Below are positions 6,204-64,000 of a stretch of DNA of 64,000 nucleotides, in pieces. This DNA is from Tribonema minus (Eukaryota; Sar; Xanthophyceae; Tribonematales; Tribonemataceae). The translations under genes were made by a program, and so were the position numbers. Position 1 is the stretch's first letter; every line of letters begins with the position of its first letter. The notes beneath the pieces are model-generated. The model saw only the letters and a list, made by a program, of their open reading frames with translations, was not told the DNA's origin and searched no databases. The stretch spans positions 62,001-126,000 of the forward strand of contig JAFCMP010000009.1 of the NCBI GenBank assembly GCA_017506865.1, read 5' to 3'.

Positions 6204-6290
6204 CAGGTATGCTGCAAGGAAGCAGGGAGTGATGGTGCGCTCCTGGAGCACGTGATTCCCATAGCAATATTTGTGGCAAAAGAATGCGTA

Positions 6291-6300
6291 ATTCCCATAT
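6291..6300 (-). promoter_or_regulatory. candidate early promoter word upstream of helicase
   Basis: The plus strand reads AATTCCCATAT (ATATGGGAATT on the minus strand), with a second copy GATTCCCATAG at 6254-6264. Both lie 50-100 nt upstream of the helicase ATG at 6203. A poly-A run at 6300-6307 adjoins. Confidence 0.45.
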
Positions 6301-6365
6301 AAAAAAAGTCCCGATTCAACAAAGTGCACAGTGAAAAAGAATGCGAATTTCGTGTGTCTGATAAA

Positions 6366-25623: not shown

Positions 25624-25680
25624 TGTTTGGTCTGCTTGTGATGATCCAACAAATTTTACTACTGTTCAGAACCACGCGTG

Positions 25681-28036: not shown

Positions 28037-28050
28037 TTTATAATATTGTT
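28037..28050 (+). promoter_or_regulatory. candidate late promoter word (TTTATAATATTGTT)
   Basis: 15-28 nt upstream of ATG 28065. Confidence 0.5.
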
Positions 28051-28064
28051 CTCTCAAAAAAGAC

Positions 28065-29027
28065 ATGAGCACCATCGCCAGAGTCGCCAACGACTTCAAA
28101 GCGGCATGCGATGTACTGGGCGTCACTTACGACAAGTCGGATGTATTCAAGCTGATGCAGATGGCAGCAGCGGAGTCGAGAGCGCCGTCTCCACCTCCGT
28201 CGCTTCGTCTCTCACCCAGACCTTCGCCGCCGTCACTCCTGCTGTCGCCAGTGCTCTCGACAGCATCGCGAGCGTCGACTTCGTCGCCTCCACTGCGTGC
28301 GTCGCTCCTGCTCTCGCCAGTGCTCTCGACAGCTTCACTAACATCGACTACGTCGCCTCCGCCGCCTTTTTCAACACCGTCGTGCTTGTCACCGCCGTCG
28401 CCGCCGACACCACCACCGTCGCCCCGGCACCCCCCCCCTCCGTGGGATTCGTTCATCGCGCCCAGAGAGAGCGAGTTCAGCGTCGTGTACACACTGAAGC
28501 TGAGGGGGGGCAAATATTACGTGGGGTTCACGACCAACCTTCCCAAGCGACTCGAGCAGCACTATACGGGCACCGACGGTGCAATGTGGACGAAGCATTA
28601 CCCCATGGAGCGAGTCGTCAACATTGAGTACAATGGCAACAAGTTCAAGGAAGCGACGGCGACGCTGATGCTGATGGCGAGTCACGGCCTCAACAACGTC
28701 AGAGGTGGCTCATACATTACGGCTCGATTTACACCGGAAGAGAGGCGGGCGATTGAGAAGCAGCTGTGGGGAGCTACGGATGCGTGCCTCAATTGCGGCG
28801 ATCCCACGCACTTCGCAGCGGACTGCACGGCTGACAGCAAGCGTGCGCGCAGGGACACTCCCTTCGAAGCACTGCCGCCCGTCGACGAGGCGCTGTTCGC
28901 GGCGAGACGCGAGTTGCTGCGTTCGCCGCACGCCGTGTGTACGAGATGCGGCAGGGGAAAACATGTGTTGGCAGTGTGCTACGCAAAAGTGCATCGTAAC
29001 AAGACAGTGCTGCCGCCACTATGTTGA
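28065..29027 (+). CDS. GIY-YIG endonuclease with Pro/Ser linker and two zinc knuckles
   Basis: 320 residues. Residues 1-40 form a short helical domain. Residues 41-130 are a Pro/Ser-rich linker encoded by a minisatellite with a unit of about 69 nt. The GIY-YIG core follows (VVYTLKL then GKYYVGFTT, with R in LPKRLEQHY as the catalytic arginine). Zinc knuckles come next: CLNCGDPTHFAADC, a CCHC knuckle, and CTRCGRGKHVLAVC. The nuclease probably cuts one strand or a defined DNA site; the knuckles would bind nucleic acid. GIY-YIG genes in giant viruses are often mobile or act in DNA repair (family knowledge). The 5' truncated gene at 1-214 shares the last knuckle. Confidence 0.75.
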   Translation: MSTIARVANDFKAACDVLGVTYDKSDVFKLMQMAAAESRAPSPPPSLRLSPRPSPPSLLLSPVLSTASRASTSSPPLRASLLLSPVLSTASLTSTTSPPPPFSTPSCLSPPSPPTPPPSPRHPPPPWDSFIAPRESEFSVVYTLKLRGGKYYVGFTTNLPKRLEQHYTGTDGAMWTKHYPMERVVNIEYNGNKFKEATATLMLMASHGLNNVRGGSYITARFTPEERRAIEKQLWGATDACLNCGDPTHFAADCTADSKRARRDTPFEALPPVDEALFAARRELLRSPHAVCTRCGRGKHVLAVCYAKVHRNKTVLPPLC

Positions 29028-38769: not shown

Positions 38770-38866
38770 ATGCGAAACAGGGGCCCCAGCGCCCTCGACA
38801 AAAGAATGCGCAGAATGCATAAATCGGACGAAATTATCTTGTTCATCATTCACTACCACAGGAACG

Positions 38867-41041
38867 ATGGCGCCTTCCAAACACGGATCAAACACGCCAA
38901 GGAAATCGCGATTAGTTGCGAAGCCCACTAGACAGTCATGTGTGGTCAGCGGGTGTGGTCTCCAGAGGGCACCATTCGTAAGACATTGCGGAGCGCACAG
39001 GTGTCACAGGACGTGCAGATACGCAGGCTGCCAGTCAGTGTCTGTTTTTGCCGGATGTATTGGTGCCGGTAGGCAGTGGTGCCCGAAGCACAAACCCTCA
39101 GACGGTGTCAGAATAAGTGGTTTGCAGCGTTTGTGTTCTACAGGCTGCGGCAGACGCGCCGCGTTGGAACGACCAGGGGAGCCAGGCGTACTGTATTGTC
39201 GCCAATGCGGAGGTGCCCAGGCCGTGGATGTCACACATGCAAAGTGCGCTGGAGGATGCGGGAAGCGCCCGCACTTCGAGAGACCTGGGGAGCCGGGTAA
39301 CATCTATTGTCGCGCTTGTGGCGGGGCTGGGGCTGTGGACGTCAAAAATGTGAAGTGTGCGGGTGGGTGTGGTAAGACACCGTGCTTCGAGAGACCGGGG
39401 GAGCGAGGCGTCCTCTTTTGTCGCAGTTGCGGTGGAGCAGATGCTGTGGACGTCAAAAATGTGAAGTGTGCGGGTGGGTGTGGTAAGACACCGTGCTTCG
39501 AGAGACCGGGGGAGCGAGACATCCTCTATTGTCGAGATTGCGGCGGAACCGAAGCTGTTGACGTTTCGCACATCAAATGCGCCGGTGGATGTGGGACACG
39601 ACCGAGCGTCGAGAAACCGGGGGAGCCAGGAGTGCTATTTTGCCGCACATGCGGCGGCGAAGAAGCCATCAACGTGGTCAGCGTGATGTGCGCTGGCGGA
39701 TGTGGAACGCGCCCGAGCTTTGAGAAGTGGGACGAGCCAGGCCTGCTATATTGTCGGGCCTGCGGCGGTGACGAAGCTATCGACGTCACGAATCGACAAT
39801 GTGCCGGCGGATGTGGTAAGGTGCCGTGCTTCGTGAGGCCAGACGATCCTGGCATATTCTTCTGCCGTGGTTGCGGTGGTGACGACGCTGTCAATGTCAC
39901 TGCCGTCTTGTGCGCTAGCGGCTGCGGAAAACAGGCAACGTTTGAACGACCAGAGGAGCCCGGGACTCTCTACTGCCGGGCCTGTGGTGGCGAGGACGCC
40001 ATCAACCATAGGACCGCCCGCTGCGCTGGCGGTTGCGGGAAAGTCCCAAGCTTCATGAAGCCAAGCGAGCCGAGCTTGCGCTACTGCCGCAGTTGTGGTG
40101 GTGACGACGCCGTGAACGTCGTGAGCACCTTTTGCGCTGGCGGCTGTGGGATAATTGCATGCTTTGAGAAGCCCAATGAACCCGGTCTTCGCTTCTGTCG
40201 CAGCTGCGGTGGTGATGAAGCCGTGAATGTCGTGAGTGCCACTTGTGCTGGTGGCTGCGGAAAATTTCCGTGCTTCGAGAAGCCGAATGAACCCGGTCTT
40301 CGCTTCTGCCGCAGCTGCGGTGGCGATGAAGCCGTGAATGTCGTGAGCGCCACTTGCGCTGGCGGCTGCGGAAAATTTCCGTGCTTTGAAAAGCCTGAGG
40401 AACCTGGCATCCGCTTCTGCCGTAGCTGCGGTGGCGATGAAGCCGTGAATGTTGTGACGGCCAGATGCAAGCACGGGAGGTACTTGCAAAATTGCACCGG
40501 AGCGACGTGCGGAGTGAAGCTGGTGAACAGGTCAAGGCAAGAAATCCATGCAACGGCGACTGCGTTTCTCTTGCTACAGGAGATCGATGGTGACCCGCTC
40601 GGTCAATACATCAAGTCGCTGAAGCACCGCATCTCACTGGGTGATGCCACGTGGTGCAAGCCCGACATGCTCCTTGGATCCACAGTGTACGAGTTTGATG
40701 GCTTTCACTATCACAACTGCACCGAGGATCGGGAGAACGACATTCGTAAGACTGCGCAGCTGACATCTCTTGGCTACATTACGGTCAGGTACCGTGATGG
40801 TGTGCCAGCGATTCCTGGCGCAGTCAACGCTCCCGTCAATGCGTCAGTTGGGAGCACAACGACTACACGGTTGCGGTCACTGCGTGAGCAGGTCTTGAGG
40901 TATCATGGGACTGAGCCCAGCCCTGAGCTTCTCAAGCGAGCCGAATCACTAGCGGAGCGGGCCATATTACACTTGTCTCAAGTCAATGCTACTGTCAAAC
41001 AGACAAGTATAACGTCATATGCGGTGCCTGTCAGCAAATGA
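38867..41041 (+). CDS. EsV-1-7-like cysteine-rich repeats fused to a Vsr-like endonuclease domain
   Basis: 724 residues. After a basic start and a cysteine-rich lead, 12 tandem repeats of 37 residues (111 nt) follow. Each has the core C-A-G-G-C-G-K-x-P-x-F-E-x-P-x-E-P-G, then F/Y-C-R-x-C-G-G and (A/I)-(V/N)-V. Spacing C-x3-C-x16-C-x2-C resembles the EsV-1-7 motif (C-x4-C-x16-C-x2-H), with Cys in place of His. The C-terminal 200 residues contain KPDMLLGSTVYEFDGFHYH and GYITVRYRDG, which fit a Vsr/PD-(D/E)xK nuclease (D...E-x-D-G). The repeats likely bind zinc and target DNA; the tail cuts it (inference). Confidence 0.7.
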   Translation: MAPSKHGSNTPRKSRLVAKPTRQSCVVSGCGLQRAPFVRHCGAHRCHRTCRYAGCQSVSVFAGCIGAGRQWCPKHKPSDGVRISGLQRLCSTGCGRRAALERPGEPGVLYCRQCGGAQAVDVTHAKCAGGCGKRPHFERPGEPGNIYCRACGGAGAVDVKNVKCAGGCGKTPCFERPGERGVLFCRSCGGADAVDVKNVKCAGGCGKTPCFERPGERDILYCRDCGGTEAVDVSHIKCAGGCGTRPSVEKPGEPGVLFCRTCGGEEAINVVSVMCAGGCGTRPSFEKWDEPGLLYCRACGGDEAIDVTNRQCAGGCGKVPCFVRPDDPGIFFCRGCGGDDAVNVTAVLCASGCGKQATFERPEEPGTLYCRACGGEDAINHRTARCAGGCGKVPSFMKPSEPSLRYCRSCGGDDAVNVVSTFCAGGCGIIACFEKPNEPGLRFCRSCGGDEAVNVVSATCAGGCGKFPCFEKPNEPGLRFCRSCGGDEAVNVVSATCAGGCGKFPCFEKPEEPGIRFCRSCGGDEAVNVVTARCKHGRYLQNCTGATCGVKLVNRSRQEIHATATAFLLLQEIDGDPLGQYIKSLKHRISLGDATWCKPDMLLGSTVYEFDGFHYHNCTEDRENDIRKTAQLTSLGYITVRYRDGVPAIPGAVNAPVNASVGSTTTTRLRSLREQVLRYHGTEPSPELLKRAESLAERAILHLSQVNATVKQTSITSYAVPVSK

Positions 41042-46559: not shown

Positions 46560-48600
46560 ACGGGCCGTAGTAATCACCTCGTCAACAGTCGGAGCGAGGA
46601 ATCGTGCACGACGGCACCACGATTGCATCATCACCAACCATCACGAGGTGTCAGCTGCAAAACACAAGTGCTGCGGCGATCACCACGTCGACACGGCGGC
46701 CAGAGCAATCGGTCTGCACGAGGACACGGCGAGCGCACATCGCGATTACGAGGCGACAGCTGCAAACCATGCGCCACACATTTGAAAGCGGCCGGCGCAA
46801 TCATGTATGCAACGGCTCGCGAGCGCACACACTCGCCATCACGACGATGCACGACGTGCGATCACGGTGGATACCAGGCGGCCGATATGAATCGTGTGCA
46901 CGACGACTTAGCAAGCACACACTGTCTTACCATACGATGCGCGCCGTGCGATCACCATCAGCACAGAGGCTGATGCGAATCGTGTGCGCGACCGACATCG
47001 CAATCGCAACGGCGCGATCTGCAAGACGGCGTGCCGCGGCGATCACGACGTCACACGGCGGCCAGAGCAAATCGTGTATACCATGGCATGGCGAGCACGA
47101 CTCACCGCATCTCAAACAATCGTCCAGTTCGAAGCACCCGCCGTGCAAACATGCAGCAGCAGTCATCATGTCAGCGCACGGAACAGCAGCACAAGCGCCG
47201 ATGATATTCCATGATGCCTGACAACTGCAGCATCGCATCCAGGCGCGCTCACGATGAAGTGCACGGATCACGTCACGTGCCAACCGCTCTCATCGCTCTG
47301 CTGCAAGACACCAACTGCAGTTCGCTGACAACGCACCGCCAGATGTCACCATTCAAAACCGAAGCAGACACATCACAGCGATTTGACTATGTACAAAATG
47401 CGATGTCCATTATTTACTTCCTCACTTTCACTTGTCCAAAGTCGACAAGCTTCTGTGGGACCTTCGCGCATGTCAAGTTCTTTCAGCGCTGTGAGGTTGC
47501 CAAATAACTCGTGCAGGCTGGTGAGCCGTGCGCAGTGAGCGAGGCTCAGCGTAGTCAACGCTGTCAGGTTGCTGAATGAATCCAGCAACTCAGTGAGCAG
47601 CTTGCATCGCGACAGGCTGATATAAGTCAACTCTGTCAGGCTGCCGATTGAATCCGGCAGGCTGCTGAGGTGTGAGCAGTTCCGTAGGCGGAGTGCACAT
47701 GGCGCATGGCACACAACTGTGCACAGGGTTCCCTCGGTGCGCACTCCGATGAGAGCACTGTGCCAGGCCGCACTCGAATGCATTCATTCATCCATTCGAC
47801 GCCGACGACCGTCGGCGCTCGACACGGCGCTCTTTTTGACGAGCATTGGCGCTCGACATGGTGCGTCGTCACGAGCCGCGCTGGCTTACAACTAACTCGT
47901 GACATGCAGTCCGCACTGATGCCATCGCACACACCGCTTGAATGGCGGCACGAGGGACACAGGGTCATTATTGACAGCACTGCCGACATCCAGAGCACAC
48001 GAGGCGACACTTCAGTATGTGTGCCGCAGCCACCGTCTCGTCGGCACAGCAGCCGGTGCAAGCATTGTGCGTGCCTATGTGGCACGTGCACACTGCCGTC
48101 ACGAGCATGCGATGTAATCATGCCGTCAGCACAACGGCCAGGGCAAACACTTGTGCACATGGCAAGCATGCACTCACCAATGTATGGCCAAGTCGGCACA
48201 GCGGCCGACGCAGTTCGTGTGCACGACCACATGCGAAGCACGCACTCTGTTGCCATCACGATGCACCTGCTGTATTCCAAAGAACGCGATCGCGATGGCA
48301 GCACAGCGGCCCGAGCAAACGATTGTGCACGACGACACCTCAGGCGCACGTCTAAATCTCGAGGTGACAGCTGAAAAACGTCCGCAAAGAAGTTAGGGAC
48401 ACCGGCTGACACAATTCTTGTGCACGACGACGTCGTAAGCACAAATCACCATCACCAGTCACAAAAGGATGTGCTGCAGCGATCACCTCGTCCATACGGC
48501 GGCCAGAGCAAACGATTTTGCACAACATCGCAAGCACACATATCACTGACTACCACAAACCTCATCGCCATGACTCATGGCCGCCGATGCAAATCATGTA
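46560..48600 (+). repeat. degenerate interspersed repeat array, unit about 80-100 nt
   Basis: A word of the form GCGATCAC-ACGTC-CGGCGGCC(A/G)GAGCAA-CG(T/A)GTGCACGACGAC recurs near 46695, 46888, 46965, 47055, 48200, 48303, 48395, 48490 and 48580, and already at about 44290 and 44370. Units are strongly diverged and separated by GAGCGCACATCGC...ACGAGGCGACAGCTG. No coding role is seen. An LRR fragment interrupts the array. Confidence 0.5.
47384..47710 (-). pseudogene. leucine-rich-repeat fragment
   Basis: Minus strand. Three plant-type LRRs of 24 residues (LRNCSHLSSLPDSIGSLTEL, then ISLSRCKLLTELLDSFSNLT, then LSLAHCARLTSLHELFGNLT) and the start of a fourth, ending at a stop. No start codon or clear acceptor precedes them. 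Probably a relic or an isolated terminal exon of an LRR gene, inside the degenerate repeat array. Confidence 0.55.
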
Positions 48601-49117: not shown

Positions 49118-51930
49118 TTAAAGCTGCAACTTCTGAGCAGTCGCGTCCAGGGCATACACGTCCCACTGCTGGTCGCCCAGCAGGTGCTTGAGCTCCCGCG
49201 CAAGACCTAGCGACGACAGCACTTCGGCAGGCGAATCCGCCTGCAGTAGCTCAAGCTCCTGCAGCATGATGTACCGCCTGGGGCGCTTCTTGTTGTCAAT
49301 CAGCTCGTTGTCCTCCGGAATGCCATCGATGTAGTGTCCGAACTTCTCCGTAGGGTGTGGCACATTCTTGCGCTTGTAGTACCAGTTTGCAATGTCCATC
49401 GGTTCAGCTAGCATGCGGTAAGCGTGGCCACGCATCACCCAACTTCTACTGCCCTCAAAAATGATGTAGCCAGAATAGTAACGGCGCTGGACATCTTTCC
49501 AGAAGCCCCAGAGCACCTGCGCGTTGAACACCCACGAGTGATGGCAGATGATCAAATGCAAGCACTTGTCGTCAATTGGTAATACGGCGTGTGACGCTGG
49601 GGGCAGCTTTTCAGCTGCAGAATGCAAATGAGCCTGTGTCTCTGCTCAGCATGCTGCAACAGTCACAGCTGTCGCAGTCACGGCTGCCACGATATGGCAA
49701 GCAACGAGCGCAGTGTACATCAAGCAAAGTGTCAGCCTGCAATTGCACACATTAGCAGGCGTTGACATCACATTCGCGAGCTAGGGCTGTCAACATCGTA
49801 GTTTCAGCAAGCTTGAACTCAATATAGTAATAGTGCACCTGATGACATGACACTTGCAAGGAAATCGGCATGTGCTGCTGGCTGGGAGCACTTACCTGCA
49901 ACGCAACGAGCACCACCTAGAAGAAACGCACTAATGCCAAGCATCTTACACACAAGTTAAATTGACGACATGAAGACGATCGTGATCATGAGCGCGCTAT
50001 GCTTGTAAGGACTTTATTCTTGCGCTGTTTTCAGCTGTACAGACGAAATGCAAGAAAGTTTGTTAAGAGTACTATATTAAAATCACACTGTAAATGTGGG
50101 TGAACAGTTGTCCTGCGTCAACATGAGCGTAGGTCATCAGCTGAGGGCATCTGGCCGCTGTGCTTAACAAACCAAACGCAGATGACACAAATCGGCAAGC
50201 GTCAGATTTATCTAATTGCCCCTGGCAGACAAGAAATGATATCGACAAGCTGACGCAAGAGATGCGTAGGTAGAATGTGTGCTCACCTTCATTGCCTGCA
50301 ACATCTCTGAGCGCTTCGCAGGCGTGACCAGCACTGGCGGCAGGAACATGCCGACTGGATACCTGTCCTTCATCACTTGCCGCTGCTCTTCCAGCACCTT
50401 CATAGCCGGCTCTGCAGTGTTGTTGAAGTCAAATTCCATCTGCTTTGCCACGTTGCACATCTTAACGTTCCTTTCCTGCACCTTTGTCTCCTGCATCATT
50501 CTGACGAGATCTGTGAGATCGGCCTTGCTGAAGATAGTGACCACTCTGTCCACATTGGTCTTTGCGAGCTCGAGGCTTGTCATCATGTCGTCGATGGTGC
50601 GCTCCCTCTGACCCGCCGTGAAGAACCGCGCAAGCTTGCTTTTGGATTTGCGCTGGTAGTCTGTGACCATCTTCTCCAGCGCCGTCATGCAGTTGTTGAG
50701 CTCGTTGATGCGGGAATAAAACAATTCCTTTCTGTCGGCGGCGAGGTCGCTAATGTTCACACTGCTGCCAAGCACGCCCAGTGTCAGCTGTGCGTTGACG
50801 AAATCAGTGCAAGTGACATGAAGCAACAAGGCATATGTTAAGGTCACAGTTGAAAATGCGCTTCCTGTGCAATGCCTTCAGGCTACCAGCGCATGATCAG
50901 GTGACAATTGTGCAATAAACTCTGAAAACTTCGGGCCAAGCTTTGTTTACTTGCCTCATCCGTGAGGCACACTTTCATGTTTCTATACCTGTAGACTTGC
51001 CACCACAGCATATGTGCACATGTTCTTGCAGGTTTCATCGGCAAACATCTGTCATTCATGCTTAAGGGACCGTGCTGAAGAAGGAGACTGAGACCCTGTT
51101 TCTGGAATCAGAGATGCCCCTGAAAGCGACTTGGCCATGCTGCGGTGCCTGCATTCTGCAGCGGTGCCGCCGTTGAGGCTGGCTGTCGCAGATGTTTGCG
51201 GTGCACTTACTATAGCATTTCATTGCTGCGCACGTCTGCAAGCATGAAGTGGTGGTGGGACTCAAAAGCCTTGCAATGTGCCGACCTGTGTTGCTTCAGG
51301 TCCAGGAGCAAATTCCAAGAAAAGCTACAACACCATTGAGCAATTGAGGGTTTCATATGTGGCTACTGATATGTCAAGCGCACTGCAGCAGTGTATTATA
51401 TAATCTCTTTTGTCAACAGCAGGCTGGTGTCTAGCTGCCATGCTGCTGTTTTGTTGCGTTTTGATGGACCAGTTTGAGGAGTACACACCTTCATAATGCC
51501 CATTTCCTTGGGGATGCCATCGTGGACGGCATCGAACACAGTTTTGTTGCTTTCGACAAGCTCCACGATGTTGTCCATGATGACAAACACTGGTCCCACA
51601 TATGGCAGTGCCTGTGCCGTCGGCGCTACAAGCTGTGCGATGGTGAGAGCACTATCGCGTACAGCAACACAATGGTGCCCATCACCTGCAGAAACACACG
51701 ATGAGGCGAAACACTACACGTGAAAATAAATGCTCACCGGCATACCTGGACGCTTCAGAGTGTTCTGAAGTAATGCAATAGATAACAACTGCGCCAAAGA
51801 ACCGCAGAATGGTGTTTGTGATAGCATCATGAGCCTGGAGCGCAGGAAGCCTTGCTTGAAGCATGATCACGGTGAAAGCTGGGGTGCATGGAGCGTTTTC
51901 AACTCGTTTCATGTACTCACATGTCTCCAA
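49118..51930 (-). CDS. MLKL/HeLo-like helical bundle fused to an EDS1-type EP domain
   Basis: Proposed exons: 51930-51921 (shared 5' mini-exon), 51685-51489, 50787-50287, 49516-49118; about 368 residues. Residues about 20-220 look like the four-helix bundle of MLKL N-terminal/HeLo/RPW8-type domains (ALPYVGPVFVIMDNIVELVE, ISDLAADRKELFYSRINELN, FFTAGQRERTIDDMMTSLEL). The C-terminal 130 residues carry GFWKDV, SWVMRGHAYRMLAEPMDIAN, GHYIDG and RPRRY in the order of the plant EDS1-family EP domain. The mini-exon has TTG where the related gene has ATG, so the true start is uncertain. The acceptor at 49517 fits phase 0, but the last exon could extend upstream. Role in TIR-linked defence is inferred. 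Confidence 0.6.
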
Positions 51931-52850
51931 TGCTTTGCATCACACCGCATTGATGATCCCGGAGATTTGTGCATGTTTGAAGTGCTGTGCTTTGCGTACC
52001 TGGAGCTTCTGGCGCCGGACATGCCATGAGTGAGCTGCCTCCCTGATGCGCTGCTGATGCTGTTCCTGCACTGACCGATGCACACCTACGTAGCTGCTGC
52101 TGTGGATAGTGGCCAGAAAATGCGCTGCGGAAATCACTGCGACAACTGCAACAAGGAATTTCCGACAAGTGTAACTGCAACAGGGATTTTCCGTACATGT
52201 GCTCAGCCCATTGCTGCTCAGCGCACTCGGCCTTGTCACACCCTCTTTTTACTGTTGATTGATGAGTCAGCATGGCGTGTAGGGGTGCTCTGCGACACAC
52301 AACATGCGTAGCTCAAAATGGCGCACCATTCATGTCATGCGCTCGATGTTCGACTGCCCGCAGGGCGAAAGCGAAGGATGTGCGCAAACGTGCCCTCGAG
52401 CGCAGCTCACATGACTGTGTTCTTCACGCATCATCGACATCAAGGCACACCGCAATTGCCGTCAAACGAGACTGAAAGCGAAGGGCGAGGCAATCCTGTC
52501 ATCACGCGCGCAACACTCACGAAGCACACTCCGACCGACCTCCGGTCGGGCCTGCCCTTCGACCGGCCACAGGCCGACTGAGCTTCGCTCGGGCCTCCCC
52601 GAAGGAGAGTCGGGCCCAGCCGAAGGCTGGTCGGCAATCGACTCCCCCATGGGGGAGGCCCAGCCGAAGGCTGGTCGAGCACCGCAGCACTCGATCGCAT
52701 TCACGAAACGCCAAGTGGTGCGGAGAGCGGCGCGACATCCGCAGCTGGCGGCCTTGCAACGAGATGTTGCGACACGAAAACATCTTTCGAACCAAGTGAC
52801 ATGGCAACCTTTCACAAAACAACAACTTGCAATGCACACAATGATCGAAA
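51817..52850 (-). repeat. segmental duplication, copy 1 (5' block of the EP-domain gene)
   Basis: Nearly the same sequence as 58511-59690: TGATAGCATCATGAGCCTGG, AAGCCTTGCTTGAAGCATGA, GCTGGGGTGCATGGAGCGTT, the mini-exon GGAGACAT|GTGAGTACAT, CTGCGACACACAACATGCG and the GC-rich hairpin cluster. Covers first exon, first intron and upstream region. Confidence 0.75.
52530..52680. repeat. GC-rich hairpin cluster
   Basis: Short palindromes such as CCGACCTCCGGTCGG, CCAGCCGAAGGCTGG and CCCCCATGGGGG follow each other. Related clusters at 53510-53580 and 59395-59545. A single similar palindrome occurs at about 11630-11650 in the viral part. Confidence 0.6.
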
Positions 52851-53174
52851 TGTGCACACGACACGATGCGCACGACAAGAGCGTGAGTGTCAAAAGTGAC
52901 GATGCGAGCGCGGCGACGATGCACACAAAGGCACGGCGCACTAGACATGCGAAACGAAGACAGTGCGCTCAAATCATTCGCGACCGTTCATTTCACGCAC
53001 CTGCTGCCACCGTTTTCATATGCTACTCCTCATGCGACACATACATCGCGCGCTGGGCGACAGAGAGCGACGCTCGGCGCTGCTGCTCACCCGCCCTGCA
53101 CGATGCAATCGCATTGCATGCCGTTTCAACATACGGCACTTCGATGCGCCACAACAATTGCCAGTCACGAACGG

Positions 53175-53265
53175 TCACAATGTACTCGAAAAACATGATG
53201 CGCTCGAGCAACACAACCCCCTCGACTAACACTATGCGCTCGACGAACACGATGCGAACAACATT
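53175..53265 (+). repeat. 18-nt tandem repeat (ATGCGCTCGA-NNAACAC)
   Basis: Four to five imperfect copies of ACATGATGCGCTCGAGCA / ACTATGCGCTCGACGA in the upstream flank between the EP-domain gene and the TIR gene. Non-coding. Confidence 0.5.
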
Positions 53266-53509
53266 GCAGACTTCGCCGAGCACGCACCCGGCGGCGCACG
53301 GCTGCGTGAGTCGCACCCGATGCACAGTACGCAGTCACCTCAATGAATGCGGGACGGTGCGATCGAGACGAATGAGGGACGCTCTGCAGGCACGGCGACG
53401 AACGCGCGAACAGGCGAAATGGCAACGAACGACGCTGCTCCGCTGGTACACGAGACGATGCACACCGTGTTAGCGTACGACATTGGCATGAATGTGAAGA
53501 GTGACGACT

Positions 53510-53580
53510 GCCCTTCGACTCCCCGAAGGGGAGGCCCAGCCGCAGGCTGGTCGGGCAGGCCCGACCTTCGGGCGGTCGAT
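53510..53580. repeat. GC-rich hairpin cluster
   Basis: CCCTTCGACTCCCCGAAGGG, CCAGCCGCAGGCTGG and GCCCGACCTTCGGGC. Same style as the clusters in the segmental duplication. Confidence 0.5.
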
Positions 53581-53713
53581 GCGAGCACGGCGACGATGCA
53601 CACAGAGGCACCGCTCAGTAGAAGTGTGAAAAGACGAAGGTGCGTGAGAGCGGGGTGCAAACGAGGAATGGCGTGATATTCATGACAGGGGAAACTGTTG
53701 CCTGCCTCGCTCG

Positions 53714-56700
53714 TCACTGCATAGTACAATTGCCGTGTTCTGGTGCGATGAGCTCATCGAGCGCTTGCTGCGTTTGGACAGTCGAGGGATGCTCGGGACC
53801 CAACACTTCCTGCTGGATGGCAAGTGAACGCTTGTACAATAAAGCCGCTTCGTCAATATTGCCCTGCTTTTCGAGAAGGTCGGCAAGATTGTACAGCGAC
53901 GTCGCCGTGTCTGGATGCTTCGGGCCCAGCACCTCTTCGCGAATGGCGAGCGCGCGCTCGTACAACGGCGCCGCTTTTGCCAACTCGCCTTGAGCTTCGA
54001 TGAGCATGGCGAGGTTGTTGAGCGACGTCGCCGTCCAAGGATGCTTGGGGCCCAGCACCTCGTCGCAAATGGCAAGAGCGCGCTCGTACAACGGCGCTGC
54101 TTTTGCCAACTCGCCTTGAGCTTCGATGAGCATGGCGAGATTGTTGAGCGACGTCGCCGTCGAGGGATGCTTCGGGCCCAGCACCTCCTCGCGAATGGCG
54201 AGCGCGCGCTCGAACAATGGCGCCGCTTCCGCAAAATTGCCCTGCGCTTGATGTAAGTTAGCGAGGTTGTTGAGCAACGTCGCCGTGTCGGGATGCTTCG
54301 GGCCCAGCGCCTCCTCGCTGATGGCGAGCGCGCGCGCGTACAAGGGCGCAGCCTCCGCAAAGTTGCCCTGCGCTTTGTGAAACATAGCGAGGTTGTTGAG
54401 CGACGTCGCCGTGTCGGGATGCTTCGGGCCCAGTGCCTCCTCCCTGATGGCGAGCGCGCGCACGTACAAGGGAGCCGCCTCCGCAAAGTTGCCCTGCGCT
54501 TCATGTAACGAAGCGAGGTTGTTGAGCGACGTCGCCGTGTCTGGATGCTTCGGGCCCAACGCCTCCTCCCTGATGGCGAGCGCGCGCGTGTACAAGGGCG
54601 CAGCCTCCGCAAAGTTGCCCTGCGCTTGATGTAATGAAGCGAGGTTGTTGAGCGACGTCGCCGTCGAAGGATGCTTCGGGCCCAGCGCCTCCTCACTGAT
54701 GGCGAGCGCACGCACGTACAAGTGCGCCGCTTTCGCAAAGTTGCCCTGCGCTTGATGTAAGGTGGCGAGGTTGTTGAGCGACGTCGCCGTGTCGGGATGC
54801 TTCGGGCCCAGCGCCTCCTCCGTGATGGCGAGCGCGCGCACGTACAAGGGCGCCGCCTCCGCAAAGTTGCCCTGCGCTTTATGAAACACAGCGAGGTTGT
54901 TGAGCGACGTCGCCGTGTCTGGATGCTTCGGGCCCAGCGCCTCCTCCCTGATGGCGAGCGCACGCACGTACAAGTGCGCCGCCTCAGCAAAGTTGCCCTG
55001 CGCTTGATGTAAGGTGGCGAGGTTGTTGAGCGACGTCGCCGTGTCGGGATGCTTCGGGCCCAGCACCTCCTCGCGAATGGCGAGCGCGCGCACGTACAAC
55101 GGCGCCGCTTCCGCCAAGTCGCCTTGAGCTTCGAGGAGGCCCGCGAGGTTGTCGAGCGACGTCGCTGTCAAAGGATGCTTCGGGCCCAGCGCCTCCTCCC
55201 TGACGGCGAGCGCGCGCACGTACAAGGGTGCCGCTTTTGCCAAGTCGCCTTGAGCTGCGATGAGCACAGCGAGGTTGTTGAGTGACGTCGTCGTTGAAGG
55301 ATGCTTCGGGCCCAGCACCTCCTCTTCGATAGCGAGCGCGCGCGCGTACAAGGGCGCAGCCTCCGCAAAGTTGCCCTGCGCTTCGTGAAACATAGCGAGG
55401 TTGTTGAGCGACGTCGCCGTGTCTGGATGCTTCGGGCCCAGCGCCTCCTCCGTGATGGCGAGCGCGCGCACGTACAAGGGCGCCGCCTCCGCACAGTTGC
55501 CCTGCGCTTGGAGGAGGGCGGCAAGGTTACCGCACGACTTCGCCGTCGAAGGATGCTTGGGGCCCAGTGCCTCCTCGCTGATGGCGAGCGCGCGCACGTA
55601 CAAGGGCGCCGCCTCCGCAAAGTTGCCCTGCGCTCGGAGGAGGCCGGCGAGGTTGTTGAGCGACGTCGCCGTCGAGGGATGCTTCGGGCCCAGCGCCTCC
55701 TCGAGGATGGCGAGCGCGCGTGCGTACAAGGGCGCCGCCTCCGCAAAGTTGCCCTGCGCTTGATGTAAGGTGGCGAGGTTGTTGAGCGACGTCGCCGTGT
55801 CGGGATGCTTCGGGCCCAGCACCTCCTCGCGAATGGCGAGCGCGCGCACGTACAACGGCGCCGCTTCCGCCAAGTCGCCTTGAGCTTCGAGGAGGCCCGC
55901 GAGGTTGTCGAGCGACGTCGCTGTCAAAGGATGCTTCGGGCCCAGCGCCTCTTCCCGAATGGCAAGCGCGCGGTGGTACAAGGGCGCCGCCTCCATCAGC
56001 ATTTGTCTGTCATGCAACTCGTAAGCAAGGTTATGAAGGCTTGTGGCCCAGGTCTCCGTGTTGTCAATGTTGAGCAATGTCGCCAACTTCCGTAAGTTCT
56101 GCTGCTCGCTCAACAGCAGTGCCAACACTGGCGCAAGCACGTCTGCTCCCTTCTCCGGACGACGTTCGCGAAGCTCGTCCGCCAAGCTGACGACGAAGTA
56201 TGCGAATCTCCGCTGAGCGACCGATGCCGCCTCTGGCGAAAGCAACCGCTTCGCCGCCTCCCGGTGCATGGCGTGCATCGTGTACCGCGCGCCGCCGGGG
56301 ACTTCGACCGGCGGATCCGGAAGGCGTTGAAGGATGGAGAGATCGCGGAGTTCGCCCAGCAAGTCTTCGAAGTCGCTGTCGGAATACGGCGCGTCCGAGT
56401 ACTCGCTCTCAGGTGTGAGCATGGCACTGATGCCAGCATCACTGAAGCTGTCAGGAAAAACGGAGAGTTGCGCCAGGCTGTCCAGGCTGGGCTTGTCCAG
56501 AAACTGGGGGAGCCAGGCATAGAGCTGCTGCACGTTGGAGTCGTACTCCGACTTCCTGTCCGCTGGCAAGCTGGCGCACAGTTCCGCGGCACTGACGACT
56601 TGCTGCAGAAAGCACAAGGGTGAAGTCCACGTCAAGTGATTGCTCTGGCACGATACTTTGCAGCGCTGATGACTAGCCGCAAGGCAGCACAAGCAGGACA

Positions 56701-58624
56701 TCAGCGTCAAGCAGAATCTACTGGTATAATTTGTGAAGCCATGCAGTAACAGATGCATATGATTTTGTCGTGTACCTTAAGCTTCTCAGGCCGCCTTTCC
56801 AGAAAGGCTGCTAGCGCCGTCAGCATGAGGGCATTGTGGCCGCAGTACCTCGCCAAGGTCTGAGCTTCGAAGCTGTCCTTTGCCACCTCGATGCCGCCGC
56901 AAAGCAGAGTCCGAGAGCATTCATCGCCGAGCGGCTGGACTTCCAGCCTTTTGTAGCTCTTGAAGCGATCGAGATTCTCCCTGGACATGACTATGATGGA
57001 CATGGCCTCATGTCGACGCAGCTCCTCCATGCACAGGAACAACTCCTGGAAATGAGAGATACACTGTGTCAGCATGTGAGCAAGCAAGAGTGTGAGCAAG
57101 CTGTATGTCAAGGTATAAATTGCACTCACATGTCCTGCGCCCGCCGGATTGACGTCCTCTGCCGTATCAAATGCCACCAGCACCTTATTTGTGCTTGGCA
57201 GCCGCCTGACCCAGGTCAAAACGGCATGCCACTGGTCTTTCCACGCCGGCCGCACATTGCCTGCCCGTACACCATCCTGCAAAATGCACATTAGGGTGAT
57301 GTCCATCAGGTGTGATGCAACAACAAGAGAGCATACGTTGCGGCAAACTCTTGTCTTACCTTGCACTGAAGAAGTTGCTGGTACATGGCCGTAGCAACAT
57401 GCTTCCTGACAGCATCCGCCGCGGATAAACGATCATCGATGTGGAAACCTGCGGTGATACAGCACGAAGGGAAGATTAGTGGACCAGCAGGCCATGACTC
57501 GCAACCCAGTACCTCGATGCAGACACAATGTCGTACTCGCCTTTCATGTCCACCATAAATGATCCTCCGCCAAACACTTGTTCAAGCTGCACAGCTGCCT
57601 CCATTGCCACTGAGGTCTTGCCCTCCCCAGGGCCCCCGAAAAGAAACACGGCACGTTTCTGCTCAAGCGCCTTCTTGATGTTGATGATCAGTTCGTCGCG
57701 GCCCAGCAAATCGTCGCTGTTGGTGATGACACGCTTCAAGAATCTCGCCGGCGGAAGTTCATCTCGATCAGCCGCGAGTCCTTGCCGCTTTAGCTCCTCA
57801 AAGATCGCCATCGCCACATCTGCCGCACACTTCCCCTCGAAGCCGCGCGACTGCAAGCAAAGGGAGCATGAAACAAATGTGAGGCGACGCCACGTGCGTC
57901 ATCTCAATGCTCAAAGGATAACCGCACCTGATCCAGTCGCCATCCTGAGCGCCCGCACAATTTCCTTATGTCTGTGATCCAGCCCGCAATTACGGCATCA
58001 GCCGGCCGCCCGCGATCGCCCCAGTTGCAGTCCGTGTACAGTTGCTGCAGCCCGTCCGTGCACTGTGTCGGGTTCAGCTTGAAGAACACCGGAAGGAGCT
58101 TGACCTTGTGTCCGGAGTCGCAGCGCTCCAGCAGTCGGCGCAACTCCTGCATCGGCCACTTCCTCGTCACGAAGTCTCCACTGAGCACAAAAATGCCTGC
58201 AGTACACACAGACAATTCACGGACCGTCACGGCTGTTGGAGTCACTTCAACATGGCAAGCAAGGATGCATCGCAGACTCACCTATCTTGGCCGTCTCCAG
58301 TGCCCTTTTAATGTCTGAGTTCAATTCCTCACCAGGCTCCAGAGAGTGTTCGTCCAAGAAGAGGAGGTCCTTCTCCACACCTTTGCTGATCAGCCATTGG
58401 TACACAATGTCGGCGAAATCCTTCTTCTGCGGACCTGCGTGACTGATGAAAACCACGGGGCCTTCGCGCTCCTGCCTCTGTGCATTGTACATATCACCTG
58501 CAGATTGACAGTGATAGCATCATGAGCCTGGAGCGCAGAAAGCCTTGCTTGAAGCATGATCACAGTGAAAGCTGGGGTGCATGGAGCGTTTTCAAACTCG
58601 TTCTATGTACTCACATGTCTCCAT
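53714..58624 (-). CDS. TIR / NB-ARC-like / TPR immune-type receptor (TNP class), complete
   Basis: Eight exons: 58624-58615, 58497-58282, 58196-57928, 57850-57541, 57448-57360, 57276-57130, 57045-56776, 56602-53714; all joins keep frame, about 1,399 residues. TIR: VVFISHAGPQKKDFAD, FLDEHSL, then RKWPMQELRRLLE, whose Glu sits at the NADase position. NB: Walker A GGPGEGKTS, Walker B VLVAFDTAED, SIIVMSRE, CGHNALMLTALAAF, winged-helix-like LSVFPDSFSD and MHAMHREAA. Then 18 kinesin-light-chain-type TPRs (ALAIREEALGPKHPxTATSL), 42 residues each. Donor of exon 4 is GC (AAAG|GCGAGT). Probably an intracellular sensor that assembles and activates TIR signalling. Confidence 0.85.
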
Positions 58625-58936
58625 TGCGTTGCATCACACCGCATTGATGAACCTGGAAATTTGTGCATGTATGAAGTGCTGTAGTTTGCGTACCTGGAGC
58701 TTTTGGCGCCGGAGATGCCATGAGTGAGCTGCCTCCCTGATGCGCTGCGCTGCTGATGCTGTTCCTGCACTGACTGATGCACACCTTCTACGTAGCTGCT
58801 GCTGTGGATAGTGGCCAGAAAATGCGCTCGGAAATAACTGCAACTGCAACAGGGAATTTCCGTACATGTGCTCAGCACATTGCTGCGCACTTGCTGCTGC
58901 GGCCTCGTCGCAACCTCTTTTGACTGTTGATTGATG

Positions 58937-59132
58937 AGTCAGCATATGGCTGCGACACGGCAGGCAGGGGGGTATGGGGATTTTGTCGGGGAGGACTTTG
59001 GAGAAGGGGAGGACTTGCACTGGAATGGACTGTAGACAGTGACGTTTCATTACACCAGCATATTTTGCCAATCACAAGTGAGCTGATCAGGCCAAGGGGT
59101 TGTGGACCTACACATAATATAAAAAGTCAGCA
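58937..59132. mobile_element. 188-bp insertion bounded by 8-bp direct repeats
   Basis: AGTCAGCA at 58937-58944 and again at 59125-59132 bracket sequence that is absent from copy 1, which has a single AGTCAGCA. The insert is G-rich on the plus strand (GGCAGGGGGGTATGGGG) and ends in ACATAATATAAA. No clear terminal inverted repeats. The 8-bp duplication would fit an hAT-type non-autonomous element. Confidence 0.5.
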
Positions 59133-59394
59133 CGGCGCGTAGGTGTGCTCTGCGACACACAACATGCGTAGCTCAAAATGGCGCACAATTCATGGCATGT
59201 GCTCGGTGTTCGACTGCCCGAAGGGCGAGAAGCGAAGGATGTGCGCAAACGTGCCCTCGAGCGCACCTCTCATGACTGTGTTCTTCACGCATCATTGACA
59301 TCAAGGCACACCGCTATTGCCGTTGAACGAGACTGAAATCGAAGGGCGAGGAATCTGTGTCATCGCGCGCGCAACACTCTTTGGGAAAACTTCA

Positions 59395-59545
59395 GACCGA
59401 CCTTCGGTCAGGCCTGCCCTTCGACCGGCCACAGGCCGACCGAGCTTCGCTCGGGCCTCCCCAAAGGGGAGTCGGGCCCAGCCGAAGGCTGGTCGGCAGT
59501 CGACTCCCCCATGGGGGAGGCCCAGCCGCAGGCTGGTCGAGCACC
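59395..59545. repeat. GC-rich hairpin cluster (copy 2)
   Basis: Same palindromes as 52530-52680 with point differences, inside the segmental duplication. Confidence 0.6.
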
Positions 59546-59699
59546 GCAGCACGCAATCGCATTCACGACACACAAAAGTGGTGCGGAGAGCGGCGCGATG
59601 TCCACAATCAGCGACATCCTAACGAGCCGTTGTAACATGCAACAAGCTATATGGCAACCCTTAACAAAGCTTGCAATGCACACGATGATTCACTATGCA

Positions 59700-59835
59700 T
59701 ACACGAGACACTACACACGATGCAATCAAGATGCGCACACGAGATGATGCACATAGTGCGATTAAGATGTATGAACGAGACAACGCTCACAATGCAATCA
59801 AGATGCACAAACGAGATGAAGCACATGCAGTTTCA
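59700..59835 (+). repeat. ACGATGCAATCAAGATGCACA-type tandem repeat
   Basis: Three to four imperfect copies, spacing about 35-55 nt, of AATCAAGATGCRCAMACGAGA. Non-coding flank between the two TIR genes; little else is visible from 59,836 to 60,277. Confidence 0.45.
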
Positions 59836-60277
59836 CACACAATTGCACTCATCGCATGCGATCGACGATAGCGCACGACAGTTTCATGAATGTGAACAGT
59901 GACGATGCGAGCACGGCGACGATGCTCACAATGGCGCACTAGACGTGTTCGATGAGGAATGTCCATCGCGCCGGCTGTGGTAAAAATCTTTGTTGAATAT
60001 TTCAATGATGAACGCAGCGGGATGCAGTGCATGGAGCGGTGCACGCGATGATGCCATCGCACACAGCGGCGACGCCGCTCGCAGAAGTGTGCTCGATTGA
60101 TGAAGCAATTGCGCATGGCGGCGACGATGCTTGCAGAAGCGTACATGGTTGGTGACGGACGACGGCATATTCAGCAGTGCGAGATGCAGTGCACTGCGAG
60201 CGTCACACACCATTAAGCGCGCAGCAATGAGTGAAGATGTATGAGATCGATTAAACCTGAAACTTTGGCGCTTGCGA

Positions 60278-63200
60278 CTACTCTGAGGCCGCTTCGTCCA
60301 CCATAGCAAGGATCTGCTGTGCCTGTCTTGTCAAAGGATGCTCGTCGCCTAATTTGTTCTTGAAGATTGCGTACGCGCGCCGCTGCATCCCCTCCGCACA
60401 TTGCAAATCGCCTTGTGCTTCGAGCACATTGCCGAGATTGCCGAGAGTCTTCGCGACGTTCACATGCTCAGTGCCGTACACCTTCTCCGTGATGGCGAGC
60501 GCGCGCCGCTGCATCCCCTCTGCACTCTTCAAATCGCCTTGTGCTTGGAGCACAAGGCCGAGATTGCCGAGAGTCTTCGCGACCTCCACGTGCTCAGTGC
60601 CGTACGCCTTCTCCTCGATGGCGAGCGCGCGCCGCTGCATCCCCTCCGCACCTTGCAAATCGCCTATTTCGAAGAGCACAATGCCGAGATTGCCGAGACT
60701 AATTGCGACCTTCACGTGCTCACTGCCGTACGCCTTCTCCTCGATGGCGAGCGCGCGCCGCTGCATCCCCTCCGCACCCTGCAAATCGCCTTGTTCGAGG
60801 AGCACATTGCCGAGAGCTCTGACAATCTTCGCGACCTCCACGTGCTCAGTGCCGTACGCCTTCTCCTCGATGGCGAGCGCGCGCCGCTGCATCCCCTCAG
60901 CACCCTGCAAATCGCCTTGTCCTTCTAGAACCATTCCAAGATTTCTGACAGTCTTTGCGACCTCCACGTGCTCAGTGCCGTACACCTTCTCGAAGATGGC
61001 GAGCGCGCGCCGCTGCATCCCCTCCGCATCCTGCAAATCGCCTTGTATCCCAAGCACATGGCCGAGATTGCAGAGAGTTCTCGCGACCTCCACGTGCGCT
61101 TCCCCGTACACCTTCTCGAAGATGGCAAGCACGCGCTGCTGCATCCCCTCCGCACCCTGCAAATCGCCTTGTTGGAGGAGCACATTGCCGAGATTCCTTA
61201 GAGTCTTCGCGACCTCCACGTGCTCAGTGCCGTAAACCTTCTCCTTGATAGCGAGCGCGCGCCGCTGCACCCCCTCCGCACCCTGCAAATCGCCGCCTTC
61301 TCGGAGCACAATGCCAAGATTGGTGAGCGTGATCGCGACCTCCACGCCCTCAGTGCCGTACGCCTTCTCAAAGATGGCGAGAGCGCGCCGCAACATCCCC
61401 TCCGCACCCTGCAAATGGCCTTGTTCTGCGAGCACATTGCCGAGATTGCCGAGAGAACTCGCGACCTGCACGTGGCCTTCCCCGTACACCTTCTTATTGA
61501 TGGCGAGCGCGCACCGCTGCATCCCCTCTGCACCCTTCAAATCGCCTTGTGCTTGGAGCACAAGGCCGAGATCGTTGAGCGTCTTCGCGACCTCCACGTG
61601 CTCTTCCCCGTACACCATCTCCTTGATGGCAAGAGCGCTTTCGTAGAGAGGCAGCGCCTCAACCAGCATTTGCCTTAGATACAACTCGTAAGCAAGGTTA
61701 TGAAGGCTTGTGGCCCAGCTTTCCGTGTCGTCAATTTCGAGCAATGTCGCCAGCTTCCTCAAATTCTGCTGCTCGCTCGACAGCAATGCCAGGACCGGTG
61801 CCAGCACGTCTGCGCCCTTCTCTGGACGCCGCTCTTCTAGCTCGTCAGCCAAGCTGACGACGAAGTGTGCAAATCTCCGCTGGGCAATTGCTGCTGCCTC
61901 TGGCGAAAGCAGCCGCTTCGCCGCCTCCCGGTGCATGGCGTGCATCGTGTACCGCGCGCCGCCGGGGACTGCGACTGGCGGATCCGGAAGCCGTCGAAGG
62001 ATCGAGAGATCGACGAGTTCGCCCAGGAGTTGCTCAATGCCTCCGCTGGTGATAACACCATCCGACGTAGCAGCGACTGATGGTGCTGATGTGCAGCACA
62101 TCGATATGGTGAAGTTGGCGAAACGCCGCCGAGGCCGCACAGGTGGCTCGTGTCGATCGTCAGATGTGGGCGCCAAGATGAACGTGATGCCATCGTCGCT
62201 GAATGAGTCTGGAAACACAGACAAGAGCGCTAGGCAGGCTCTGCTGGTGCCGTCTAGGAAGCCATGAAGCCACACACCCAGTTGCTGCACCTGGGCGTTT
62301 AGCCTCGACTTTGTGTCCACCGGCAAGTCGGCATGCGCTTGTGCCGCACTGACGACTTCCTGCAGCGGAGGGCAGGAGATGTTGTCAATGTGCATTAATT
62401 TGTGATGATGGTCGCAATGCATGAGGACAAGCTAAAGGCGAAGAGCTTACCTGCAGTTTCTCAGGACATTTGCTGAGCAAGCTCGTCAGAGCCTCCAACA
62501 TGAGAGGATTGTGGCCACAGCGCTTTGCCAGTACCCCAGCCTCGGCGCCGGTCATGGTGGCCTGGCTGCGGACGAGGGCTCGAGCGTCTTTGTCTTCAAG
62601 AGGCTCCACCGACAGCACCGCAAACTTGCAGTAGAGGTCACTATGCTCCCGTGATGTCACAAGCACCGCCGCTCCCTCGTACTGTCGAAGCTGCTCAAGC
62701 ACTTCTGCTAGCTCCTGGAACAAGACATGAATAAAATCAAGGATATCAGCGTCAGCAATTGACCGGAGGCTTTCAAGAATTCACGGGCTTGCTTTGCTTA
62801 CATTCGCTGCACCCACGAAACTGCCGCTGACGCTCTCCGCGTTTTCGATTGCCAACAGCGCCCTCCTTACGCCTCTCAATCCGTTTAGCCAGGCCAGAAA
62901 AGCAACCCACTGTTCCTCTCCCGGCTGTAGCACCATGGCCGCCTTGATGCCGTCCTGCAAAGCAGTGCGGACAATTCATGTTGGTGGGCGTTGAACCTTT
63001 CACAGCTCAAGACAGCAATCTTCAGGCGGACAAGTTCTCACCTTGCACTGAACAAGCTGTTGGTACATGGCTGCTGCAATGTGCTTCTTGACAGCCTCGA
63101 CCTTCAAGTCGGCCAGCTTCTCGTCGACCAGAAATCCTGCACCAAGGAAGGGAGCAATGTATCAGCAAAATGCATCAAACGAGCAGACACCCCGCGTGCA

Positions 63201-64000
63201 GTATGTATCACTCACCCTTCATGTCCACCATGAACGTCCCCCCCTTGTACTCTCCCGATTCCTCCAGCTGGCACGCTGCCTCCATTGCCACTGACGTCTT
63301 ACCCTCCCCAGGCCCACCGTGCAGCAGCACCGCCCGCTTATGCCGAAGATTTTCCTTCACGGTCTTCACCAGTTCGTCACGCCCAAGCAGTTCGTCCTTT
63401 TCCACTACACGATGCAAGGACCTCGCCAGCGGAAGTTCCTTTCTGTCGACCGCAAGTCCTTGTCGCTTCAGCTCCTCGAAGATCCATTCTGCCACGTCCG
63501 CCGCATACTTTCCTTCAAAGTTGTAAGACTGTGACCAAACAGAGGACACAGCAGAGGTGAGGAGGGGCCACATGCATCATCAGAGGTGAGGAGGCGCCAC
63601 ATGCATCATCACGAAGCTCAGAATTGCACATACCTGGTCCAGTCGCTGACCGCAGCGTTCGCACAGTTTGCGCATGTCCGCAACCCAAACCTCATTGGTG
63701 GCATCGTCCGGCGCCACACGATCGCCCCAGTCATGGGCTGCGTACAATTGTTCTATCCCGTCCGTGCACTGTGTCGGCCTCAGCTTGTAAAACACCGGAA
63801 TGAGTTTGATCTCCTCTCCAGAGTCGCAGCGCTCAAGCAGTCGGTGGAGCTCCAACATCGGCCATTTCCTCGTCACGAAGTCTTCACTGAGCACGAAGAT
63901 GCCTGCAGTACACACAGAAAATTCAACGACGGCTGTTGAAGTCTCGTTGTGATGGCAAGCTCGGGTTGCGTCGCATACTCACCTATCTTGGCTGACTCCA
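60278..64000 (-). CDS. TIR / NB-ARC-like / TPR immune-type receptor, 5' end outside window
   Basis: Visible exons: 64000-63983 (end of first TIR exon), 63902-63634, 63528-63216, 63136-63042, 62954-62802, 62714-62451, 62359-60278. Exon borders and phases match the complete gene at 53714-58624 one for one. TIR end GIFVLSEDFVTRKWPMLELH keeps the Glu. Walker A GGPGEGKTS is intact, but the Walker B aspartate is Glu (LLAIENAES). Winged-helix LSVFPDSFSDDG and MHAMHREAA follow, with an extra insert around residues SDDRHEPPVRPRRRF. The TPRs (11 by hand count, AKTLxNLGxVLxxQGDLxGA, with YGTEHVEV in place of LGPKHPDT) differ clearly from the sister gene, suggesting a different ligand. Confidence 0.85.

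Follow-up and report, generated by a model that had tools for sequence, protein, structure and literature searches.

A stretch of 64,000 nucleotides from Tribonema minus (contig JAFCMP010000009.1, positions 62,001 to 126,000; hereafter the window) was found to carry, on the minus strand at 49118-51685, a gene whose product has an EP domain like that of the plant proteins EDS1, PAD4 and SAG101, and which lies 2 kb from an array of five genes that combine TIR, STAND and TPR domains. We interpret the product as an ochrophyte EP-domain signal transducer acting downstream of the neighbouring TIR-STAND-TPR receptors, a reading to which we give a probability of roughly 60%. The parts of such a module that were seen are the EP, TIR, STAND and TPR domains, a catalytic-type Glu, two residues of the ligand pocket, the linkage of the genes and a shared upstream region; its chemistry, ligand binding, co-expression and output are what we infer.

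The motifs FWKDV, SWV..Y..LAEPMDIANWY, GHY and RPRRY were present within one open frame (49118-49645, minus strand), in the order given by an earlier note on this DNA. That note had proposed an EP domain in an alga, and the proposal was borne out by the Pfam EDS1_EP profile, which matched at 25.8 bits (E 9.3e-6; curated cut-off, 23.1), with 25.7 bits for the spliced protein and 24.6 bits in a genome search. A sequence search of the PDB (E<=10) returned PAD4, EDS1 or SAG101 as the first 13 of 15 matches, with a best E of 1.4e-4. A hidden Markov model (HMM) built from 14 algal EP relatives, with the window protein left out, scored that protein at 143.9 bits, found 41 of 41 plant-type EP proteins and listed none of 5000 shuffles of the window protein. 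When profiles of 14 algal and 12 plant-type rows were compared, they matched with 97.9% probability (E 5.2e-13) over 77 core columns. Since the Pfam score is above the cut-off and the PDB and algal HMM results agree, the motifs are beyond chance, and by these sequence comparisons the EP domain is real.

Searching with a profile of five plant EPs together with the window protein retrieved 48 proteins, 41 of them plant-type members of the EDS1 family (five, P0002, P0003, P0016, P0029 and P0039, being assigned to plants by sequence and domains) and seven others with 35-54% identity to the window protein, one of which is named as Ascophyllum nodosum (P0043). The second round yielded 19 rows, including 12 new ones, and the algal relatives overall were 31-55% identical to the window EP. 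Pfam EDS1_EP was above its cut-off in seven of the ten relatives tested, P0043 being the best at 39.0 bits; P0053 fell below the cut-off yet was retained. P0058-P0060 (second round, E 2e-13 to 9e-12) are fragments and were excluded from the residue count and the tree; the two of them that were tested had no Pfam EP match. The relatives were reached by profiles only, a single-sequence protein search with a 407-amino-acid model having returned none. Viral contigs (23 stretches) and prokaryote genomes (118 stretches) were each scanned with one short EP pattern, which could miss distant forms, and neither scan yielded a confirmed relative. A tree of 25 rows, rooted at the midpoint only and leaving the branching of the window protein among the algal rows unresolved, contained one split with 100/99 support that separates 17 algal from 8 plant-type rows, which argues against recent plant transfer or contamination.

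The gene model has three supported exons, and the coding potential of each was scored as host-like codon use and compared with 2000 draws of like length from 51740-53300. The last exon scored 32.6 (maximum among the draws, 4.9) and the middle exon 63.1 (maximum, 5.3), and the case for both as coding is strong. The case for the first supported exon is moderate: it scored 7.7, above the 95% level of the draws (6.6) and below their maximum (10.7), a frame on the other strand scoring 5.2. It contains a candidate start, an in-frame Met at 51578-51576. Four exons had been claimed previously; a fourth candidate, a first exon constructed at 51738-51864, was rejected, with a codon score of -9.5 and a donor site not conserved in the sister upstream regions, and is still included in the 407-amino-acid model used in later searches. 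The junction of the middle and last exons was confirmed by P0043, which aligns to the later portion of the middle exon and continues past the phase-0 junction into the last one (DRYPVGMFLPPVLVTPAKRSEMLQAMK/VLWGFWKDV in the window and DRYATALVLPPILVSPEEREEILSHMR/TLGVFWRGI in P0043, the slash marking the junction). Joining the middle exon to the EP exon left the Pfam score unchanged (25.8 to 25.7 bits), a point against their coupling. The letter preceding the junction point was Q in six of the nine rows where the script located that point, eight further rows being without the junction pattern. This is as expected from an unspliced intron ending in CAG, suggesting an intron place common to the window gene and its relatives.

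The window protein and EDS1, PAD4 and SAG101 have in common an EP core with EP(L/M)DIAN, a (G)HY or PY step and RPxRY. Of the EDS1 residues, K440/441, K478 and R493 have been shown to matter (PMC6377607). Equivalents of the EDS1 residues were mapped via PDB chain numbering. Those of R490 and R493 were Arg in all 17 algal rows (the window protein and 16 relatives), that of K478 was Lys in 9 of the 17, including the window protein, and that of K440 was Lys in 10 of the 16 relatives, with a gap in one. Two of the four cavity residues checked, K478 and R493, are thus kept in the window protein. The Pfam EDS1_EP match covers positions 39-105 of the 211 in the profile; the window protein ends 50 residues past RPRRY, where PAD4 continues for 120, and P0043, which has the same short EP and lead-in, stops at a similar point.

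In agreement with the earlier description of the protein as being without a lipase-like domain, a profile search of the spliced protein gave no lipase-like alpha/beta-hydrolase match at E<=10. It therefore differs from the plant proteins in this respect, as it does in its shorter C-terminus, in the helices of uncharacterised kind that precede its EP domain and in the separation of the algal rows from the plant rows in the tree. The 498-residue relative P0052 resembles it in having a helical lead-in and a short EP with RPGRF, but starts with an alpha/beta-hydrolase-like domain containing GHSLGG, an EDS1-like layout made of other families, all below their cut-offs; EP partner domains therefore appear to vary. 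By definition the window gene falls outside the EDS1 family, as no lipase-like domain, full EP or partner was found, but it likely works like the EP half of that family.

Two TIR-NB-ARC-TPR genes had been reported head to tail beside the EP gene. Both were present upstream of it, and the two-gene count had to be enlarged: the array extends past the window and comprises five TIR-STAND-TPR genes head to tail at 115.7-145.0 kb of the contig, each having a pair of TIR exons, one P-loop exon and additional exons for the STAND module, together with TPR repeats. A frame-shift appears to affect gene 3 in its first TIR exon. A sixth STAND-TPR gene, in which no TIR was detected, lies at contig 155-158.6 kb. 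The NB-ARC label reflected a motif and was not upheld, Pfam NB-ARC not being listed at E<=0.01; the best match of the nucleoside triphosphatase (NTPase) of the array genes was nSTAND3, below the family cut-off, and from its sequence this NTPase is classed as STAND-like. The TIR domain could be aligned with AbTIR and the L6 TIR, and the Glu of WPMxEL, which we take to be the catalytic residue of TIR NADases, was kept in all six TIR copies that were checked, including one on a different contig. A genome search with TIR_2 gave 11 matches at E<=1, seven of them in the array, and the P-loop exon had 16 genome matches, six on the EP contig.

It was also observed that genes 1 and 4 (C9:117928-120462 and C9:136392-138923 on the EP contig; loci L021, L022 and L038) have P-loop and TIR exons that are 99-100% identical, the TIR exons being identical, and are just 82% identical in the exon where the STAND module ends and the first TPR lies; this pattern suggests that the genes were recently duplicated or converted while the sensor part changed. 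The best TIR_2 match in the genome (E 5e-18) was a different TIR gene on another contig (C157:200473-200769, locus L043), with an in-frame stop inside the matched stretch and TPR-like repeats nearby.

NB-ARC-TPR receptors have been described from brown algae and likewise combine a STAND-type NTPase with TPR repeats; NB-ARC genes have spread by tandem duplication, and shuffling of TPR exons has been described for Ectocarpus (PMC11378527). In contrast, the window genes add an N-terminal TIR with the catalytic-type Glu, and a single long frame holds the TPRs of gene 1. Plant TIR-NBARC-TPR proteins (TNPs) have the same domain order of TIR, NTPase and TPR; they persist in the absence of EDS1, and the cell death that a maize TNP caused did not depend on EDS1 (PMC9806590), whereas the window TIR genes have their locus and upstream region in common with an EP gene.

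That the TIR-STAND-TPR genes and the EP gene form one locus, as previously claimed, was confirmed and extended. Searches of the 158-Mb genome found one EP locus (one match of two candidates in one search and one of one in the other), a count to be read as a lower bound. By an arithmetic estimate, about one random gene in 1000 would have a TIR locus no more than 10 kb away. The DNA preceding the first supported EP exon is a region also found before TIR genes: it matched the upstream regions of four of the five (genes 1-4) at 82-85% identity in blocks of 468-828 columns, gene 5 being without it. A genome search with a 661-base upstream query, which skips very common words, gave six matches at five places, all on the EP contig, and found no copy outside it. 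When the upstream regions were aligned, the EP gene and genes 1-4 proved to share CTGCAG, the acceptor of the first supported EP exon, and also a possible exon end, GCTCCAG/GT; the acceptor is followed by GTGAT in the EP gene, gene 1 and gene 4, and ahead of it genes 1 and 4 lack about 100 bases. The homology breaks off at the first coding exon. Joint regulation of the EP gene and TIR genes 1-4 would be the simplest reading of this shared sequence.

Features of the window and of the adjoining contig sequence (C9). Coordinates are window positions except where C9 is given.
Feature	Position	Strand	Remarks
EP gene	49118-51685	-	3 supported exons
EP gene, last exon	49118-49516	-	EP core VLWGFWKDV...EPMDIANWY...GHY...RPRRY; ends at stop TAA
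EP gene, middle exon	50287-50787	-	Helical stretch, then first EP-domain helices (DRYPVGMFLPPVLVTPAKRSEMLQAMK)
EP gene, first supported coding exon	51489-51685	-	Incoming phase 1; open frame, GT-AG borders
EP gene, upstream region	51718-52845	-	Common to TIR-STAND-TPR genes 1-4
Part in common with genes 2-4	51718-52534		In part or whole
Parts in common with gene 1	51818-52273 and 52265-52845		
TIR-STAND-TPR gene 1	53714-58519	-	Pfam; TIR aligned to solved TIR proteins
Gene 1, TIR exons	58286-58462 and 57928-58209	-	
Gene 1, P-loop exon	57539-57850	-	
Gene 1, further STAND exons	57130-57276 and 56773-57045	-	
Gene 1, STAND/TPR exon	within frame 53714-56776	-	STAND module end and 18 TPR_12 stretches
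Gene 1, homologous upstream region	58511-59689	-	Blocks 58511-58945 and 59125-59689
TIR-STAND-TPR gene 2	60278-64000	-	Continues past window end
Gene 2, first TIR exon	C9:126002-126163		Just past window end
Gene 2, second TIR exon	63634-63915	-	
Gene 2, P-loop exon	63214-63528	-	
Gene 2, TPR frame	60278-62431	-	
DEAD helicase	4722-6464	-	Pfam scan
Poxvirus VLTF3-like factor	6961-7701	+	Pfam scan
GIY-YIG protein	28044-29024	+	Pfam scan
EsV-1-7 cysteine-rich repeat protein	38771-41038	+	Pfam scan

We propose that a receptor of the array would sense an intruder via its TPR or STAND part, whereupon the STAND module would oligomerise and the TIR domains would cleave NAD+, producing a ribosylated nucleotide. 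This nucleotide would bind the positively charged EP pocket, with its R493- and K478-like residues, and the EP protein would change shape, its N-terminal helical part or a partner then triggering defence or cell death. As for EDS1, PAD4 and SAG101, TIR proteins are the likely upstream partners. A more far-reaching version, which we consider rather doubtful, is that ochrophytes have their own TIR-to-EP second-messenger pathway. In it, a single EP protein fused to a helical executioner would take the place of the EDS1 heterodimer and the helper NLR, and receptors and transducer would be expressed from copies of one upstream region.

The nature of this helical part was considered next to the claim of an MLKL/RPW8-like pore-type bundle made in the earlier note. 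Were the N-terminal helices a membrane-piercing bundle of the HeLo/MLKL/RPW8 type, one protein would be both messenger receptor and pore-forming executioner. The middle exon is indeed predicted to be mostly helical (helices 12-50, 58-87, 92-142 and 156-166 of 167 residues), and the preceding exon could add one helix; the middle-exon sequence may also resemble HeLo-type proteins. Plant EP dimers, moreover, recruit RPW8-type helpers (PMC12856790). Nevertheless, the claim was not supported, as no HeLo, RPW8 or MLKL profile was listed for the EP protein at E<=10, the PDB search of the N-terminal part listed no HeLo, RPW8 or MLKL chain and gave weak chance matches (E 0.95 or more), and the structure model of the middle exon is poor, with a predicted local distance difference test (pLDDT) score of 53.8. 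PDB rows to clostridial neurotoxin (E 0.5-1.5) were dismissed as chance coiled-coil matches. Also speaking against a pore bundle, the long helix 92-142 partly belongs to the EP family itself, P0052 has its alpha/beta-hydrolase-like N-terminus instead, and no second copy of the middle exon turned up in the genome at E<=1. HeLo and RPW8 profiles applied genome-wide, exon by exon, gave 0 matches at E<=1, a search that could miss distant forms. We regard the pore-bundle reading as less likely than not.

EP proteins have been stated to occur in seed plants only (PMC10834447). EDS1-annotated genes, identified by domain composition, have nonetheless been published for the brown algae Sargassum (13-19), Saccharina (3) and Undaria (1), with few in Laminariales and none in Ectocarpales, and were tied to transposons, desiccation and salicylic acid; the comparison with them made here is by the text of that paper and not by EP sequence (PMC12089773). 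The EP gene might accordingly serve abiotic stress or hormone signalling, its position in the TIR array being incidental, and the copy numbers in Sargassum, the transcriptional activity of one representative Sargassum EDS1 under desiccation and the endomembrane vesicle localisation of Sargassum EDS1 fusions to green fluorescent protein in Arabidopsis protoplasts would fit such a role (PMC12089773). We think this improbable, because the sole EP locus found lies 2 kb from the main TIR array and has the upstream region of four TIR genes, and because the main text of PMC12089773 does not use the term TIR; nor does the term EP domain occur there. No paper tying an algal EP gene to TIR receptors was found in the open-licence PubMed Central literature. 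New relative to the published account of the brown-algal genes (PMC12089773) are the TIR linkage, the shared upstream region and the EP anatomy.

A somewhat better alternative, still an unlikely one, is that the EP gene was trapped in the array by unequal crossing-over and acquired a receptor promoter, leaving a common locus without a common pathway. Tandem duplication is active here, genes 1 and 4 having identical TIR exons, and the shared upstream region stops at the first coding exon; this explanation nevertheless needs a coincidence of upstream region, joint retention and the known plant biochemistry of TIR and EP, on top of a proximity expected for about one random gene in a thousand. By comparison, an artefact of plant contamination or a chance motif is refuted, unless the contig is misassembled: the gene has introns, host-like codon use and an upstream region in common with host genes, and its algal relatives, with the identities given above, split from plant EPs with near-maximal support.

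Several observations weigh against a transducer downstream of the TIR-STAND-TPR receptors. The window protein has Tyr at the K440 equivalent and Ser at the K441 equivalent, and also Ser at the equivalent of PAD4 K380, presumably a ligand contact. Because the window protein and P0043 stop shortly after RPRRY, the C-terminal half of the plant EP domain is, by alignment, absent from the algal EP. Foldseek with the EP model gave 32 matches, the best with E 2.6, and no EDS1-family chain. Of the TIR_2 matches, 11 in all, just three exceed the family cut-off, a single one of these in the array; the number is low because introns split the TIR domain. In plants, two different proteins each contribute an EP domain to the pocket (PMC12856790), whereas a single EP locus with no partner paralogue was found here. 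Sargassum EDS1-annotated genes are linked to desiccation and salicylic acid, as described, and tandem duplication can leave a shared upstream region without shared regulation.

Positions 1-44000 of the window are dense with long open reading frames on both strands, and a Pfam scan covered 16 of these, several being without a family. With its DEAD helicase and VLTF3-like, GIY-YIG and EsV-1-7 proteins, this part resembles an integrated giant virus that is perhaps akin to brown-algal ones. A 1041-residue frame at 22540-25665 (minus strand) consists, by eye, mostly of a repeat unit of about 33 residues (VACRIGTDAFE...WIQRLG) and had no Pfam family above cut-off. The last long virus-type frame ends about 8 kb short of the EP gene, and a lone leucine-rich-repeat fragment (LRR_4 and others) lies at 47373-47783 (minus strand), 1.3 kb past the end of the EP gene. 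In the genome as a whole, light-harvesting exons gave 92 matches, and the one tested had fucoxanthin chlorophyll a/c proteins as its five best PDB rows. Taken with the kinship of the EP to that of Ascophyllum and with the EsV-1-7 protein, this points to an ochrophyte with chlorophyll c, perhaps close to the brown algae.

TIR-to-EP immune signalling may extend beyond seed plants, to judge from the short EP found here in a photosynthetic lineage far removed from them, which lies beside TIR receptor-like genes, keeps the Arg needed for plant TIR signalling and has the upstream region of the receptors themselves. If an ochrophyte TIR-to-EP pathway exists, the EP module would be older than seed plants or common to distant eukaryotes, and would be a general reader of TIR messengers. 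The age and minimal form of TIR-EP signalling become testable, and the EDS1-annotated brown-algal genes gain a hypothesis other than salicylic acid. In a single-protein EP, the ligand pocket and the output may be easier to study than in the three-part complex of plants.

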